35,312 nucleotides of DNA, taken from the NCBI GenBank assembly GCA_029550925.1, contig JAKPGL010000029.1:1-35312 (forward strand). The letters run 5' to 3'. Position numbers and translations under genes: made by a program. The DNA comes from Planctomycetota bacterium. GTDB taxonomy: Bacteria; Planctomycetota; Planctomycetia; Pirellulales; Thermoguttaceae. The first letter of the stretch is position 1. Each line of letters starts with the position of its first letter. The notes under the pieces were generated by a model. It searched no databases, had not been told where the DNA came from, and saw nothing but the letters and a program-made list of their open reading frames with translations. Positions 2,955-35,312 of this stretch are shown piece by piece.

Positions 2955-3833
2955 GTGAGTTCTCTCCATTTAAGTTCTATCAGTCCAGAGGCCCAGATTG
3001 GACAAGGAGTGAAAATCGGCCCGTTTTGCGTAATTGAGTCGGATGTGGTCGTCGGCGATCGGTGCCGATTGGAAAGCCGCGTAGTCCTCCGCAATGGGAC
3101 CCGGTTGGGGCCGGATAACCAGATTTTTGAAGGAGCGGTTCTCGGCGGGCCTCCCCAACATGTCCACATGCCCGAAAACCCCGGTCTGGTCATTATCGGG
3201 GCCGGTAATGTGATCCGAGAACATGTAACCATCCATCGACCGCTTCACGCCTCTGGTACGACTCGTATCGGAGACAACAATCTCCTGATGGTCAACGCCC
3301 ACATCGCCCATGACTGCCAATTGGGATCAAATATGATCATCGCCAACAATACGATGTTGGCCGGGCATGTCGAAGCGGCGGATCGGGCCTACATTTCCGG
3401 AGGCGTTGCCGTCCATCAATTTTGCCGAGTGGGCGCTTACGCCATGCTGGGCGGCCAAGCCCATGTGGTGCAAGACGTACCACCCTATGTCACGGTGGAT
3501 GGTCTGAGTAGTTGTATTGTGGGGATCAACGTGGTGGGCCTACGGCGTGCAGGCTTCTCCTCCGAAGATATCCTCCAGATCAAAAAGGCCTATCGGGTCA
3601 TTTACCGAAGCGAGTTGAAGTGGCAGGAGATCTTGGATATCCTGCGTACCGAATTCGCCCAAGGCCCCGCTGCTCTATTCTACTCGTTCCTTGCCGCCAC
3701 CAAACGCGGGATCGTTTCTGAACGCCGTCCGCCGGGTCGGGTGAGTCTGAAACTTCTGCGCCCTGAATCCGACCAGGAAGTGGAGATCATTCCTATCGAA
3801 GAACTTCCCCATCGGCAGGCAGCCGCCGGCTAA
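2955..3833 (+). CDS. lpxA: Acyl-ACP--UDP-N-acetylglucosamine O-acyltransferase (LpxA)
   Basis: LpxA catalyses the first step of lipid A synthesis in the cytoplasm, moving a 3-hydroxyacyl chain from ACP to UDP-GlcNAc. The protein shows the left-handed beta-helix hexapeptide repeats from about residue 7 (ISPEAQIGQGVKIGPFCVIE) to about 185, and the family signature NAHIAHDC. The second His of that motif, about residue 119, corresponds to the catalytic base (His125 in E. coli). VHQFCRVGAYAMLGG and QDVPPYV follow as in the family, then a helical C-terminal domain (GFSSEDILQIKKAYRVIYRS). I chose the GTG at 2955 because homology begins here and AAAGG lies upstream; an upstream start at 2880 would add 25 unrelated residues. 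About 292 residues, slightly longer than E. coli LpxA (262) because of a C-terminal tail. It implies an LPS-type outer membrane. No other lpx gene is adjacent. Confidence 0.93.
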   Translation: MSSLHLSSISPEAQIGQGVKIGPFCVIESDVVVGDRCRLESRVVLRNGTRLGPDNQIFEGAVLGGPPQHVHMPENPGLVIIGAGNVIREHVTIHRPLHASGTTRIGDNNLLMVNAHIAHDCQLGSNMIIANNTMLAGHVEAADRAYISGGVAVHQFCRVGAYAMLGGQAHVVQDVPPYVTVDGLSSCIVGINVVGLRRAGFSSEDILQIKKAYRVIYRSELKWQEILDILRTEFAQGPAALFYSFLAATKRGIVSERRPPGRVSLKLLRPESDQEVEIIPIEELPHRQAAAG

Positions 3834-5288: not shown

Positions 5289-5893
5289 ACCTACCACTCA
5301 CTAAAAAACCGGTTTCATCTTTTCGTCCGACCTCTCCCTAGGGGCAGATCGGTATCCCGGCCTTCCCATGGCAATTTTCTTCTCTCCATTCCCAACGAAG
5401 CATAACGGATGGAACGCCCCTTTTCCCGTTCGCCAGGAGGACGGCTTGCCTTCTGGAAAAACCGCCGCCCCGGCGTACGAACTTGTTAGCATACTTTGCC
5501 GCTTGCCGATTGTCGATCCAACCCTCCCAAATTTGGAATATTTCCAGAAAAGCTAAATAGTCCATTTGTAACTGGATCGGGAGCTTTCGCGGGGGGTGAT
5601 GGACAGGTTACTCCACTTGGCTGCAATGTTACGAAATCAATAACTCGTCTCCTCGAACCGGCCCCTTTGTTCCCGGTTTCATAGTCAGGCATAGCATACC
5701 CCATTAGAGGGGCGTTAAAAGTAACATTCCGGCTGAAAAAGTCCCTTTGGTCCGTAAAGTTTTCCCTATCGGGTTCTTTTTTAGAATACCACGAAAAATG
5801 ACGATGTTAATTTATACCAAATAGACAATATAGAAAAAATACGCAAATTAAATAGAGAGATTTTGGGAAACCAATCACTGAGAAAGCTACTCC
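5289..5893. other. Long AT-richer intergenic region
   Basis: About 600 bases with only short, poorly coded frames. The 3' half (about 5700-5890) is distinctly AT-rich and presumably carries the promoter of the GAF gene, but no well-spaced -35/-10 pair is clear. Two inverted GTAACATT ends at 5625-5632 and 5721-5728 resemble the terminal repeats of the MITE near 34.2 kb (see findings). No RNA gene was recognised. Confidence 0.4.
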
Positions 5894-7603
5894 GTGTCCA
5901 ACCCATCTCCTGAGTTTGTGAATCCCTATTTCTGTGAACCATCGCCCCCCTCTACAAAGGGAATGGAGGAAGAAGATTTTCTGCGCCGATTGGAAACCCT
6001 GCAGGATTCCTTCCGGCAGGTAACCGGCTGGGACGTGAAATGGCATGTCCGGTCCAAAGAAATCCCGTCCAACGGAGAAGAACCCTCCGCAGAGGGAGAG
6101 GAGATTACCGAGGGGATTTCCTTTTCTTTGAAACCCGGGGCTGGCCGCTGTAAGGGTTCGGGAAAAGACTCCGATCCGCTGCTTTCTTCGCGCGGCCGTA
6201 GTCCCCAGACCCAGGAGGCCGTGCTCCAGTTGGCCGAGGGAGTAGCGGACCTTTTGGGCGAAATCCATCGGCTTCAGCAGACCCTTTGGCAGCGGGAGGC
6301 GGAGTTGGCCACCGGAGTGCCGGTGGTCGCCGATTTTTCGGATAGGAAGACCTTAGCCCCGCGTTTGCAAGCCATCCTCCGAGCCGGGGTAGAGGCCGTC
6401 GGAGCAGACGCCGCTGGGGTGTATCTATTGGACGAGGCGACCACGTGTTTGAAACTTCGCTGCGTCTGGGGGCTGCCGATCCAGAAACTGGCGGCGCCGC
6501 CTCGACCGCTCCGGGGCGCCCTGGCCGACCTGGAGGCCCTTTTGGGCCATGCAGTAGTCCTGGACGATCTGGCCCGAATGCCATCTTGGCAGTCGCCGGA
6601 GAAAGAATTCGGGGCGGCCGTCTGTACGCCTATTTCCACGGAGACCACCCTGCTGGGCACCCTGTGGGTCTTCTCCAAACAGCCCAGAGACTTTACCTCT
6701 CAGCAAACTAACATTCTGGAAGTGATCGCCGGCCGGATCGCCGCAGAGTTGGAACGAGAAGTCCTCTTGGCCGAGACGGCGGCCCTAAAGCCCTGGAAAG
6801 ACCATCTGTACCAGCTCCAGCAATGGCACGAAGAACAGGCCGATTGGAGTGCGTCTTGCGGCGAGGGCTGGGAGATCGGCCTCTGGCAGGAATCAGGGCC
6901 GGCAGGCTGGGGAGAGTTTTTTCAGCGTTTTGCCTGGGGAGATGAAGGCACGGCGCTGGTCCTGGGGCGAGTGCACGAGCAAGGTCTTCGGGCCGTGTTG
7001 GAGGCGGTTCGGATACGGTCGGTCGTGCAGGCCCATGCCGAACATGTTCAGCAGCCCCATCGACTGCTCCACCAAGTAGATGAGACATTATGGACCAGTT
7101 CGGCGGGCGAGTGCCAGGCAGCGGTCTGGGTGGGCAGACTGGGCCGGACCAACTCCACGCCGTCGGACCAGATGCAACTGCAATACGCCGCAGCCGGCCG
7201 GATGAGCTTGGTCTTGGTAACATGCGAGGGATGGAAATCTCTGAGCGAACCGTCGCCTCCGCTAGCAGCTCGGCCCAAGCCGTCTGCGGCGTCAACCGGC
7301 CCGTTGGGCAAACCGCTAGAGTCCGACAGGGAAATTCCGCAATATAAAAACCGACGCCATCGGCTCCGCCGGGGAGAAACGCTCGTCATTTTTCCCGCCG
7401 TTGAAGCAAGAGCGGAAGCAACGGCTATACGGGGCGGCCGGGGGGACGATCGGCTGCGGCAGATGGAAGCCCAATTGGCCGAGCACCTCCGAGGGCGTCT
7501 GGACAAACCAGCACCACAGTTGGCCGAACTGGCCCAAAAATTCCTCGAAAGGCAGGATATCGGCCTGCTTCCTCAAAGCCTCCTTGTGCTGAAAGCTCGA
7601 TAG
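5894..7603 (+). CDS. GAF-domain protein with degenerate SpoIIE/PP2C-type domain
   Basis: A 569-residue cytoplasmic protein. Residues about 1-135 are variable and end in a short coiled coil (EIHRLQQTLWQREAEL). Residues about 147-285 form a GAF sensor domain (LRAGVEAVGADAAGVYLLDE, CTPISTETTLLGTLWVF, NILEVIAGRIAAELERE). Residues about 315-565 align in layout with a SpoIIE-type PP2C phosphatase, as in RsbU-like regulators: ALVLGRVHEQGLRAVLEA, LQYAAAGRMSLVLV, LRRGETLVIFPAVEARAEA. The metal-binding Asp residues expected in AGDWYD, GDVSGHG and YTDG are replaced (for example GRVHEQG, FPAV), so it is probably a pseudophosphatase that binds but does not dephosphorylate. The GTG at 5894 is weakly supported; an ATG at 5963 (MEEEDF) just after AAAGGGA is the alternative. 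Stand-alone gene. Confidence 0.8.
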   Translation: MSNPSPEFVNPYFCEPSPPSTKGMEEEDFLRRLETLQDSFRQVTGWDVKWHVRSKEIPSNGEEPSAEGEEITEGISFSLKPGAGRCKGSGKDSDPLLSSRGRSPQTQEAVLQLAEGVADLLGEIHRLQQTLWQREAELATGVPVVADFSDRKTLAPRLQAILRAGVEAVGADAAGVYLLDEATTCLKLRCVWGLPIQKLAAPPRPLRGALADLEALLGHAVVLDDLARMPSWQSPEKEFGAAVCTPISTETTLLGTLWVFSKQPRDFTSQQTNILEVIAGRIAAELEREVLLAETAALKPWKDHLYQLQQWHEEQADWSASCGEGWEIGLWQESGPAGWGEFFQRFAWGDEGTALVLGRVHEQGLRAVLEAVRIRSVVQAHAEHVQQPHRLLHQVDETLWTSSAGECQAAVWVGRLGRTNSTPSDQMQLQYAAAGRMSLVLVTCEGWKSLSEPSPPLAARPKPSAASTGPLGKPLESDREIPQYKNRRHRLRRGETLVIFPAVEARAEATAIRGGRGDDRLRQMEAQLAEHLRGRLDKPAPQLAELAQKFLERQDIGLLPQSLLVLKAR

Positions 7604-7785
7604 CATTTCAGCCGAATGGCGGTTCCTCTTCGTGTCATCCCCGTGCAATCGCCCGATCCTGGGAAAATAGGCAGGAGTCTGGGGACGTGGTCTGGCCCTA
7701 ACGTCTGCATCGTCCGGCCTTGAAGGTTTCGGCGTTTGCGTGGACGGCGAGTAGGGGATTTTCGGCGCCGCCTGTTTCGGCGGGT

Positions 7786-32608: not shown

Positions 32609-32645
32609 GGGGGCCCCGGTCATACCGTGGGCCCCTTATTTTATT
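32609..32645 (+). terminator. Rho-independent terminator after FG-GAP gene
   Basis: GGGGCCC (32610-32616) pairs with GGGCCCC (32629-32635). Inside, CGGT-CAT-ACCG forms a second 4-base-pair stem with one bulged T. The hairpin is followed by TTATTTTATT. Its T-rich tail overlaps the 3' end of the convergent methyltransferase gene. Confidence 0.8.
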
Positions 32646-34092
32646 CCCAAACCCCGGTTGAGTCTGGAGAGTTCGGAATATCCGTCTCCCCTTTGCCTAT
32701 CGGCGGCGAAACGCTGGGAGGGGCAGACAACAAATCCAGCGCTTCCGAAGGCATGGGCAAAGGGGAACTCGTCCAGAAATTCGGCGCCGGAATGGCGGGA
32801 TGGACCGGCTGTTTCGTCTCCTCCGCGGCGACTCCGGAAGAGCTGGTTCCTGCTGGTCGATACGGATGGTCATCAAGGAAATAGTCCACCCATCGGCCCT
32901 GATACTCGATCAAAACAGTCCGGCATGGAATGCCTTGCTGCTGGATTTCCAGCACGATGTCGGCCGCCCGCCATTGGGGGGCAATCAGGATGACATCTAC
33001 CGGATGGTCCTTCAGATAGTCCCGGAACCGGATCAACTGGCCTGTGCCGGGAACATAAGTGCCTGCTTTTTGGATGTCCGAATCCACGACCAGGGGGAAC
33101 CGCTGGGCGTCCAGGCCGCACTGATTGATCAGCGCGGCGGCCTTGCCCGTGCCGCCCCAAATAGCCACCCGAACTCCGCTTCGGACGAGGGCTTCCAATT
33201 GGCGAGCCAACGCCTGACGCCGCCCTTCGGCCTGTTGGGCGAAACGAAGGGCTTCTTCGGCCAATTGAACCTGGCGGGCCTGGACAGGAAGCAAGGCCAA
33301 GGCAAAGACTACCTCGCCGCCGTAGCCTTTTTCCAGCAGTTCGATCTTGGCCCCGGCCCGTTCCAACATCCGTCGTAAGGAAAGGGTAGTAAAATGAGAA
33401 TTGTGTTCGTAGAAAAAGTCGGTCGTTCGGCCGGTTTCGAGGGCCTGGTCGATGCAGGGCATTTCGACAAAAAGTCGCGTTGGCCGACGGGTCCAACTGA
33501 CCGCCAGAGCAATCGCTTGCAGGAACTGGAGCGGATCGACCAGATGCTCCAGTACATGGCGGGCCACGAGCAAATGGGGCCGACATTCCGCCAAATGCCG
33601 CTCCGGTACAAAAAGCTCCACCCGGGCCTCAATCCGGCCGTCGTCGGTCTGAATGGCGGCGTTCGGATCAAAACCGATGTAGCGCCCCTCCGGACGAGCA
33701 CCAGCCAAGGCGCTCAGTAAATGCCCATCCCCACAGCCGATCTCTACCACCGTGGGCCGAGCCGGTAATATCCCCAACAGCAATTCCCGCACATACTCCA
33801 GATGCTTCCGCCACAAGGGACCTTGATTGAACATCCGATTGGGATGCTTGCTATAGGGAACCTGGCTATAGTCGAACTCGGTATTATAAACATGCCCACA
33901 GTCCACACAGCGGACAAACCGCAGCCGATACCGAGGAAGGTTTTGGGCTTCGTCGGCGGACTGGGGGAAAGCCAGGGTGGCTAACGGCTGGGCGCCGGCG
34001 TCCCAAAACGGCGCCGCCACTCCATGGCCGCAGGCCGGGCATCGCCCCGGCAGCATCATGGATTCCAACGTCTGGCCTGGGATATAGTGCAT
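32641..34092 (-). CDS. Class I SAM-dependent C-methyltransferase with zinc-binding N-terminal domain
   Basis: A 483-residue cytoplasmic protein with the three-part layout of deoxysugar/antibiotic C-methyltransferases. The N-terminal zinc-binding domain has CPACG (Cys18, Cys21) and CVDCGHVY (Cys62, Cys65). The SAM-binding domain has VVEIGCGDGHLL (about 115-126) and HVLEHLVDP. The C-terminal Rossmann-like domain has VAIWGGTGKAAALIN near 310 and is followed by a long Pro/Ser-rich tail (about 425-483). Such enzymes methylate NDP-sugars or related carbonyl substrates, so a role in surface polysaccharide synthesis is plausible; the substrate is unknown. The ATG at 34092 has AGAAGG about 11 bases upstream; a later start at MMLPGRC is possible. 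A MITE is inserted 18 bases upstream of the start codon. Confidence 0.88.
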   Translation of the reverse strand: MHYIPGQTLESMMLPGRCPACGHGVAAPFWDAGAQPLATLAFPQSADEAQNLPRYRLRFVRCVDCGHVYNTEFDYSQVPYSKHPNRMFNQGPLWRKHLEYVRELLLGILPARPTVVEIGCGDGHLLSALAGARPEGRYIGFDPNAAIQTDDGRIEARVELFVPERHLAECRPHLLVARHVLEHLVDPLQFLQAIALAVSWTRRPTRLFVEMPCIDQALETGRTTDFFYEHNSHFTTLSLRRMLERAGAKIELLEKGYGGEVVFALALLPVQARQVQLAEEALRFAQQAEGRRQALARQLEALVRSGVRVAIWGGTGKAAALINQCGLDAQRFPLVVDSDIQKAGTYVPGTGQLIRFRDYLKDHPVDVILIAPQWRAADIVLEIQQQGIPCRTVLIEYQGRWVDYFLDDHPYRPAGTSSSGVAAEETKQPVHPAIPAPNFWTSSPLPMPSEALDLLSAPPSVSPPIGKGETDIPNSPDSTGVWE

Positions 34093-34117
34093 GGCTGCCG
34101 CAGCCTTCTGTACTGGG

Positions 34118-34311
34118 GTAACCTTTTAGCCGAATGCAGTAACTTGTCATTCCCGCGTAAGTGGGAATCCAGGGTCTTGTGAGGCGGCTACTTGGTTATT
34201 CCTCCCAAGGAGTGGCTGCAAGAAGCCTAGATTCCCGCTAGAGCGGCAGTGACAATCCTGGGCAAATTTCGCCCTAAAATAAATCTCCTTTGCATTCGGC
34301 TAAAATGTTAC
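34118..34311. mobile_element. MITE, 194 bp, IS66-like ends, with 8-bp target duplication
   Basis: The terminal inverted repeats at 34118-34138 and 34291-34311 match at 20 of 21 positions and begin GTAAC. They are immediately flanked by a perfect direct repeat GTACTGGG (34110-34117 and 34312-34319), the expected target-site duplication. The interior has no coding capacity. 5'-GTAA ends and 8-bp duplications are known features of IS66-family elements, so a full-length IS66-type element elsewhere in the genome is the likely source of transposase. The interior includes two REP-like hairpin units. No transposase gene lies in the window. Confidence 0.85.
34144..34255. repeat. REP-doublet-like inverted pair inside the MITE
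   Basis: Two 30-base arms (34144-34173 and, inverted, 34226-34255) match at 23 of 30 positions. Each arm is itself palindromic (ATTCCCGC-GTAA-GTGGGAAT in the left arm). The TTGTCATTCCCGC...GGGAATC type of sequence is a widespread bacterial REP-like motif, and an inverted pair of such units resembles a REPIN or BIME. Confidence 0.65.
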
Positions 34312-34319
34312 GTACTGGG

Positions 34320-34668
34320 AGGTTTGGGGATCGTGGATCCGGCTTCCCCCCAGGAAAGATGTATTTTTCCCCCCCGAAATGGTTTTACGGGAAAAACGTA
34401 AGAGGGACACGGGAATCCTAGGTCTTATCGGGTATATGATTAAAACGGAATAAGCAAAATATGCAGAGGATTTAGCAGGCTATTCATTAAACGCAAACTT
34501 CCTATTTTACGTATATGTTGCAAACAACCCATTTCCTGCGTGCTTCTCAGATTTTCCATTCCACAAGCAAAGTAAATTTCACCTAACTCCCTTTTGCTAG
34601 ACGATTTAATTCTAGATTAGAGATAACAGACAAGGGGGAACCTACGCGCGTGGGCTTGGAAGAATGCC
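34320..34668. other. AT-rich intergenic region upstream of fliD
   Basis: About 350 bases, clearly more AT-rich than the genes around it. It should contain the fliD promoter. I looked for sigma-28 (CTAAA/GCCGATAA-like) and sigma-54 (GG/GC at -24/-12) elements and found none that are convincing. Confidence 0.35.
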
Positions 34669-35312
34669 ATGGGTACCATTCAAACTACAGTCGGCCTGAT
34701 TACCGGCATCGACATCAAAGGGCTGGTCGATCAGCTCATCGAGATTTCCGCCCGGCCCAAGACGATGCTCGAAGAGCGGAACAAGACGCTCCAAGAGCAG
34801 CAGACCGCCCTGGGTACGTTGGCCGGGTTGCTTTATTCGGTAAAGATGGCGGCCACGAATCTGGCCAAAACCGAAACCTATCAGCAGAGTCAGGTTACCT
34901 CCAGCAATTCAGACATCTTGGCGGCCACCAAAACCGGCACTCCCGCCCTGGGCCTCTATGAATTGACGCCCATCCGAATGGCCCAAAGCCATAAGCTGAT
35001 TAGTTCCGCGTTCCGATCGACCGAAGAGGCGTTAGGAATCGAAGGGACCATGACGATCCGGTTCGGGGACCACGTCCAGCGGGGGCTTTCACTCAGTCTT
35101 GTGAACGGCGGCGAGGGCATCCAACGCGGCAAACTCCGCATCGTCGATCGCAGCGGCGCTTGGGCCGACATCGATCTATCCACCGCACAGACCATCGACG
35201 ATGTGCTGGACGCCATCAACAGCAATACCAGCGTCAATGTACTGGCCAGCGTCCGGGACGGCCGAATCCGCCTGGAAGACCAAACCGGTCAGACGGTATC
35301 CAATCTGAAGGT
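34669..35312 (+). CDS. fliD: Flagellar filament capping protein FliD (5' part)
   Basis: The first 214 codons of FliD (hook-associated protein 2), which caps the growing flagellar filament and catalyses flagellin insertion. The N-terminus TVGLITGIDIKGLVDQLIEISARPKTMLEERN matches the conserved FliD_N helix (the family usually has SGLDv..iv..LM..E..P...l). It continues with the coiled-coil region and the variable D2-D3 domains, up to SVNVLASVRDGRIRLEDQTG. Nothing interrupts the frame to the window edge. The start is the ATG at 34669 with GGAAG about 7 bases upstream; a GTG at 34650 is in another frame. It implies a flagellated cell, in line with the motile swarmer stage of many planctomycetes. 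Other flagellar genes should follow outside the window. Confidence 0.92.
   Translation, partial: MGTIQTTVGLITGIDIKGLVDQLIEISARPKTMLEERNKTLQEQQTALGTLAGLLYSVKMAATNLAKTETYQQSQVTSSNSDILAATKTGTPALGLYELTPIRMAQSHKLISSAFRSTEEALGIEGTMTIRFGDHVQRGLSLSLVNGGEGIQRGKLRIVDRSGAWADIDLSTAQTIDDVLDAINSNTSVNVLASVRDGRIRLEDQTGQTVSNLK

Follow-up and report, generated by a model that had tools for sequence, protein, structure and literature searches.

A MITE with IS66-type ends and an interior built on a CGTC-type REP pair in a Planctomycetota genome

The 35,312-nt stretch of Planctomycetota DNA analysed here (the window) carries at positions 34118-34311 a genuine non-coding mobile element, and its identity as a MITE was confirmed. 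This 194-bp element was very probably moved, now or formerly, in trans by an ISBst12-like IS66 transposase (TnpC). All the features by which MITEs are recognized were found, as the element is short and non-coding (its longest stop-free stretch is 50 codons), has inverted ends with an abutting target duplication, and belongs to a family of many dispersed copies. The terminal inverted repeats are 21 nt long and complementary at 20 of 21 positions (95%), with the mismatch at position 6, and an exact 8-bp direct repeat, GTACTGGG, abuts both element ends without a gap (Table 1). By simple independence arithmetic, the inverted repeat alone has a chance expectation of 2.8e-4 in a window-sized sequence, and the inverted repeat plus the abutting exact 8-bp repeat one of ~5.5e-9 in the 35-kb window. 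A preliminary description had claimed a MITE with an intact duplication and a boundary precision beyond chance; both claims were borne out and its coordinates required no correction.

Table 1. Features of the element and its neighbourhood in the window.
Feature	Positions	Strand	Remarks
Left 8-bp target duplication, GTACTGGG	34110-34117	.	Direct repeat
Left terminal inverted repeat, GTAACCTTTTAGCCGAATGCA	34118-34138	+	0 mismatches to GTAACNTTTTAGCCGAATGCA
Left REP arm, CGTC-1-type, tag outward	34144-34173	+	Definition from PMC3733652
Core C1, reverse complement of the majority orientation	34174-34225	-	Module type of the element: S0 / C1- / S1
Right REP arm, degenerate, inverted to left arm	34226-34255	-	77% complementary over 30 nt
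Right shoulder, type S1	34256-34290	+	S1 shared by 64 of the 92 elements
Right terminal inverted repeat, TGCATTCGGCTAAAATGTTAC	34291-34311	-
Right 8-bp target duplication, GTACTGGG	34312-34319	.	Direct repeat
Neighbour: C-methyltransferase-like gene	32641-34092	-	PF13489, PF08484
Neighbour: fliD-like gene, divergent, cut by window end	34669-35310	+	PF02465

The preliminary description had proposed a search for further copies in the genome, and this search showed the element to have many relatives. With up to 3 mismatches allowed, the end pattern GTAACNTTTTAGCCGAATGCA matched 169 + 169 times on the two strands of the 4.90-Mb, 233-contig host genome, while the same pattern written backward gave 0 + 0 matches. 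A wider end pattern, GTAACATTTYAGCCGARTGNA (3 mismatches), matched 266 + 258 times, and BLAST with the 194 bp returned 131 matching pieces, partial and self-complementary ones included. When ends lying 60-330 bp apart with at most 10 mismatches together were paired, 127 fetched loci yielded 92 distinct elements; these loci, being chosen for matching ends or a matching element, do not sample the genome at random, and a number of the loose pairs are probably false. Among the 91 elements with both flanks, an exact 8-bp duplication was present in 29 and a duplication with one mismatch in 11; the flanks had two mismatches in 5 elements and three or more in 46, so that 51 of 91 differ by at least 2 bases, because of either decay or mispaired ends. 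At lengths of 4, 5, 6, 7, and 9, exact repeats were found in 1, 0, 0, 2, and 1 of these elements, respectively, and shuffled flanks gave a mean of 1.0 duplication at up to one mismatch, compared with 40 of 91 for the real flanks. The duplication length of the family is clearly 8 bp.

Two degenerate halves of related elements also lie within the window. One is a right half with the end TCCACTTGGCTGCAATGTTAC (5612-5632, 2 mismatches), extending upstream to ~5560, where the end is preceded by an apparent REP remnant and neither a left end nor a duplication was found. The other, at 7600-7660, is a left half whose end has 3 mismatches and is followed by an apparent REP remnant; it overlaps the 3' end of the open reading frame at 5894-7603. 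Elsewhere, the motif CAAAACTCCAG recurs either directly or 8 bp outside element ends (loci L122, L093, L135, and L165, and reversed at L032), and may represent either another repeat family or a favoured insertion target.

The preliminary description had also assigned the ends to IS66, and this affinity was upheld by IS66 copies of the host, since the right terminal repeat, TGCATTCGGCTAAAATGTTAC, once reverse-complemented, matches at all 21 nt the left ends of those on contigs C224 and C149. The IS66 transposase profile PF03050 (DDE_Tnp_IS66) had three matches in the genome, on C224, C232, and C4. On C224, the exact 21-mer occupies 3389-3409 and an IS66 TnpC frame opens 44 bp after it, at 3454; the frame runs for 393 aa before leaving the contig end inside tnpC, and scores 196.3 bits against NF033517 (transpos_IS66; cut-off 180) and 91.8 bits, likewise over the cut-off, against PF03050. 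Since the 44-bp gap leaves no room for tnpA or tnpB, the arrangement points to the single-tnpC layout of the ISBst12 group, a reading taken from the C224 spacing; the IS66 profile search of the genome covered TnpC. The available part of a report on ISDge4, a member of that group, gives ends GTAACTGCTCAGCA and GTGACTACTCAGCA, an 8-bp duplication, and a single transposase of 449 aa (PMC12898284). C149 (L122, 1-619) joins the same left end to a TnpC with a large internal deletion (residues 1-88, then 323-393), C232 carries a frameshifted C-terminal part of TnpC and a right end that has 3 mismatches, and in the 8 kb read around the C4 match the best end has 5 mismatches. Thus, of the IS66 with tnpA, tnpB, tnpC, and the same ends that had been anticipated, an IS66 was found, but with tnpC alone and in no complete assembled copy; no copy lies complete within one contig of the assembly, and no 8-bp duplication was found around the IS66 copies. 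The 266 + 258 wider-pattern ends represent a large repeat load for the host and, given that none of the three IS66 matches was shown to be complete, this load is probably mostly orphaned.

IS66 relatives outside the host genome were retrieved as well. A loose end-pattern search for complete IS66 elements produced many chance pairs, so that only L114 and L111 were kept, for their 8/8 duplications, and pairs such as L112 (ends 21/25, flanks 1/8) were dropped. L114 (1449 bp, duplication GCTCGCTC) and L111 (1506 bp, duplication TTCTGGCA) have GTA-starting ends around the genes of distant TnpC relatives from the same order (frames of 474 and 478 aa, 28-29% identical). L098, whose TnpC is 41% identical, and L100 both have GTAA ends matching at 20/25, and their flanks, which agree at 2/8 and 3/8 positions, respectively, show no duplication, which counts against the IS66 explanation. 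Two Planctomycetota/Phycisphaerae MAGs have ends of the GTAACNTTTTAGCCGAATGCA type, in 9 contigs altogether; in 8 of these the end is no more than ~140 bp from where the contig stops, the pattern that a multi-copy IS would produce. One of the two MAGs gave no TnpC match, and the other only a 33% relative. In the Phycisphaerae MAG JAGVHG01, where TnpC was not found, seven contigs with an IS end (L085-L091) break off ~98-139 bp inside it.

Eight-bp duplications are not confined to IS66, and occur for example in ISL3, IS256, ISAs1, and IS1595. The ends could therefore derive from another transposase family that makes 8-bp duplications, with the IS66 resemblance a coincidence. The likeness of the MITE to the IS does stop after 21-23 bp, and PF01797 was, besides IS66, the sole transposase profile searched in the genome. 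Against this, two IS66 copies in the host have left ends identical at 21/21 positions, the backward control of that end pattern is empty, and the GTAAC start and AGC motif are those given for ISDge4 in the part of PMC12898284 available, making an origin from another family very unlikely. A second possibility, that the MITE arose by internal deletion of an IS66 copy, was not supported, as the shared sequence amounts to 21-23 bp only. The S1 shoulder was not found in the IS66 pieces compared. C149 demonstrates that such internal deletions of IS66 do arise; it is not the MITE.

The position and fold of the element raise the question of whether it persists as a structured RNA or a regulatory hairpin and not as a transposon copy. 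It lies in a divergent spacer, ~350 bp from the start of the fliD-like gene, and the first ATG of the methyltransferase gene is 17 bp from the left duplication, which places the element in the upstream region of that gene. As single-stranded DNA it folds strongly (z -7.7), but inverted repeats fold well by construction. Over 34 aligned copies the covariation term was only -0.58 kcal/mol, and two-sided change was seen in 5 of 34 pairs, a weak test in which 4 of the 34 rows have a flipped core. The window had no Rfam match at gathering score. A scan of 34000-34700 was uninformative, with 0 promoter sites, compared with 0.8 in shuffles, and a single terminator-like site that falls outside the element. 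Finally, the aligned flanks enclose an orthologous spacer of 235 bp in the sister species G001 and of 450 bp in the window, and the element is, judging by this alignment, absent from G001. Retention as an RNA or hairpin is thus highly improbable. The preliminary description had looked to relatives for an empty insertion site; the absence from G001 agrees with this, but since the G001 spacer is too diverged, the exact empty GTACTGGG site is not visible letter by letter. In a second sister species, G002, only the fliD side of the locus aligns.

The 194-bp sequence matched 6 of 99 genomes, the host included, and the others mainly through the inner palindrome. The wider end pattern GTAACATTTYAGCCGARTGNA (3 mismatches) matched 147 + 161 and 225 + 202 times in the two sister species, 5 + 2 times in G017, and 0 + 0 times in G041, with at most 1 match per strand for its backward control. 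In a set of 25 paired elements, the 18 from G001 and G002 included 2 with an exact duplication and 5 with one mismatch, the 4 from G017 included 1 exact duplication, and the 3 from the host (G000) comprised 2 exact and 1 with one mismatch. TnpC relatives at E ≤1e-20 were found in neither sister species (drafts, 92-93% complete), a point against the IS66 explanation, as both carry hundreds of related ends. The nearest full-length relatives of the window copy are 85% identical to it, among assembled copies (those at contig ends may be lost), and other pairs reach 94%. The window copy is therefore not visibly recent, so that the recent movement proposed initially was not borne out, and its perfect duplication says only that there has been little decay since insertion.

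Inside the ends and the right shoulder, the element consists of an inverted REP pair, tags outward, around a 52-bp core. In the part of PMC3733652 available, CGTC-1 REPs are defined by a CGTC or TGTC tag, an 8-bp stem, a 4-base loop, and a CCA tail, with TGTC being a common variant of the CGTC tag. All four features are present in the left arm (34145-34171), namely the tag TGTC (34145-34148), the stem halves ATTCCCGC (34149-34156) and GTGGGAAT (34161-34168) with one G-T pair, the loop GTAA (34157-34160), and the tail CCA (34169-34171). The right arm departs from the 28-base REP pattern at 3 positions. By sequence comparison, the interior is not recognizably derived from an IS. At the threshold used, REPs were recognizable in both orientations in 49 of the 92 elements, in one orientation in 23, and in none in 20.

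The REP pattern GTCATTCCCGCNNNNGCGGGAATCCAG (up to 1 mismatch) matched 67 + 68 times in the host genome, 44 + 44 and 32 + 28 times in the sister species, and 70 + 77 times in G017, with 0 or 1 match in the remaining 56 of 60 genomes. Thirty exact REPs of the host were inspected, and IS66-type ends lay on both sides of 6, on one side of 8, and near none of the other 16, the corresponding numbers for 956 random control places being 5, 27, and 924. REPs are therefore strongly associated with IS66-type ends but also occur without them. G017 belongs to another genus of the same family. Of 10 of its REPs inspected (L217-L244), all have the CGTC tag, 5 have an inverted partner 44 bp away, and 0 have IS66-type ends. 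The REPs without ends, and a genome as REP-rich and end-poor as G017, argue against IS66 as the only spreader of REPs, and are equally compatible with a MITE that took up a pre-existing REP pair. Such capture is favoured by six of the 92 elements (type B) that have the same ends and another palindromic interior, only one of them with a duplication within one mismatch. Interiors made of CCCTCTCCC-type palindromes, between the same ends, were seen at L051 (1501-1681), L172 (427-613), L032 (1173-1356), L169 (265-453), and L171 (410-592), which suggests that repeats of more than one family have come to lie between such ends. That the palindromes were instead spread as REPs or REPINs by a RAYT (tyrosine transposase), with the IS66-like ends as decoration, would suit the two inverted arms and the many genomic REPs, more than half of the exact ones inspected lacking nearby ends, but is scarcely credible given that the duplications abut the GTAAC ends, that Y1_Tnp (PF01797) has 0 matches in the host genome (97.5% complete) and is found in 5 of 14 control genomes, and that the type-B elements keep the same ends around another interior.

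The family also records rearrangements of its interior. Alignment showed that the window copy has its core reverse-complemented relative to the majority, with the polarity of the shoulders unchanged. Core orientation could be classified in 50 of the 92 elements, 42 with the majority orientation and 8 flipped, and was undefined in 42. Sorting by module, at thresholds somewhat different from those of the 42/8 orientation count, gave 38 elements of type S0/C1+/S1; 8 of S0/C1-/S1, of which 3, the window copy among them, have exact duplications; 6 of S0/C1+/S2; 4 of S0/C1-/S2; and 2 of S1/C1-/S2, one with an exact duplication. Another 5 have C1 without a recognized shoulder (3 and 2), 10 have a C2-type core, 6 a type-B interior, and 13 an unclassed core. 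Since both core orientations occur in both shoulder classes, at least two rearrangements are required. A single clade of flipped copies was rejected on shoulders (p 0.006) and not on cores (p 0.07), and a tree of the middle part had well supported branches at 3 of 44; the two p values make recurrent flipping among copies likely, not proven. The pattern itself is observed; recombination at the hairpin-forming REP arms, or template switching there, probably lies behind it.

We envisage that TnpC would recognize the 21-bp ends beginning GTAAC and insert the element, making the 8-bp target duplication, and that the interior would have no role in end recognition. The REP arms, for their part, may permit inversion of the core and exchange of shoulders between copies. 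We regard it as possible, though on balance we lean against it, that IS66-type ends serve as a vehicle for CGTC-type REP pairs whose arms make the interior invertible, so that copies repeatedly turn their core round and trade shoulders, and subfamilies arise by recombination besides point mutation. As CGTC REPs were described without a transposase in the part of PMC3733652 available, IS66 ends offer a testable vehicle, but such ends are lacking at 16 of the 30 REPs inspected. That 2013 survey, as far as available, left open what moves CGTC-type REPs, and should IS66 TnpC prove to mobilize these cassettes, this question would in part become experimentally accessible. Moreover, because each shoulder class occurs with the core both ways round, the family preserves a natural record of inversions between short inverted repeats inside a mobile element.

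The element combines features of three known systems. With the ISBst12 group, as represented by ISDge4 in the available part of PMC12898284, it shares the GTAAC ends, AGC at positions 11-13, and the 8-bp duplication, and the presumed parent IS shares the single tnpC frame; unlike these IS, the element is geneless, is 194 bp long, and has no likeness to them beyond 21-23 bp. With the CGTC-1 REPs, which include dRS3 of Neisseria, it shares the TGTC tag, a stem starting AT, the 4-base loop, and CCA. According to the portions of PMC3733652 available, inverted CGTC dimers are of the types HH and TT and have spacers of 20-100 bp, some of them conserved, which the 52-bp core resembles; no associated transposase is reported in these portions, whereas the pair described here is enclosed by IS66-type ends and duplications. 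As to hosts, the Results of that paper give five phyla for CGTC repeats, with Planctomycetes not among them in the text available, and its abstract and discussion name Planctomycetes for two super-families together. With other bacterial MITEs, such as NEMIS and Nezha (both named in the available part of PMC3733652) and MITEAba12, the element shares its short, non-coding nature, inverted ends, target duplication, and many copies; it differs from them in its IS66-type ends, REP-dimer interior, two core orientations, and exchanged shoulders. A MITE derived from IS66, or an IS66-type one with a REP pair as its interior, was not present in the open-licence literature among the matches listed. The MITE as such is of a known kind.
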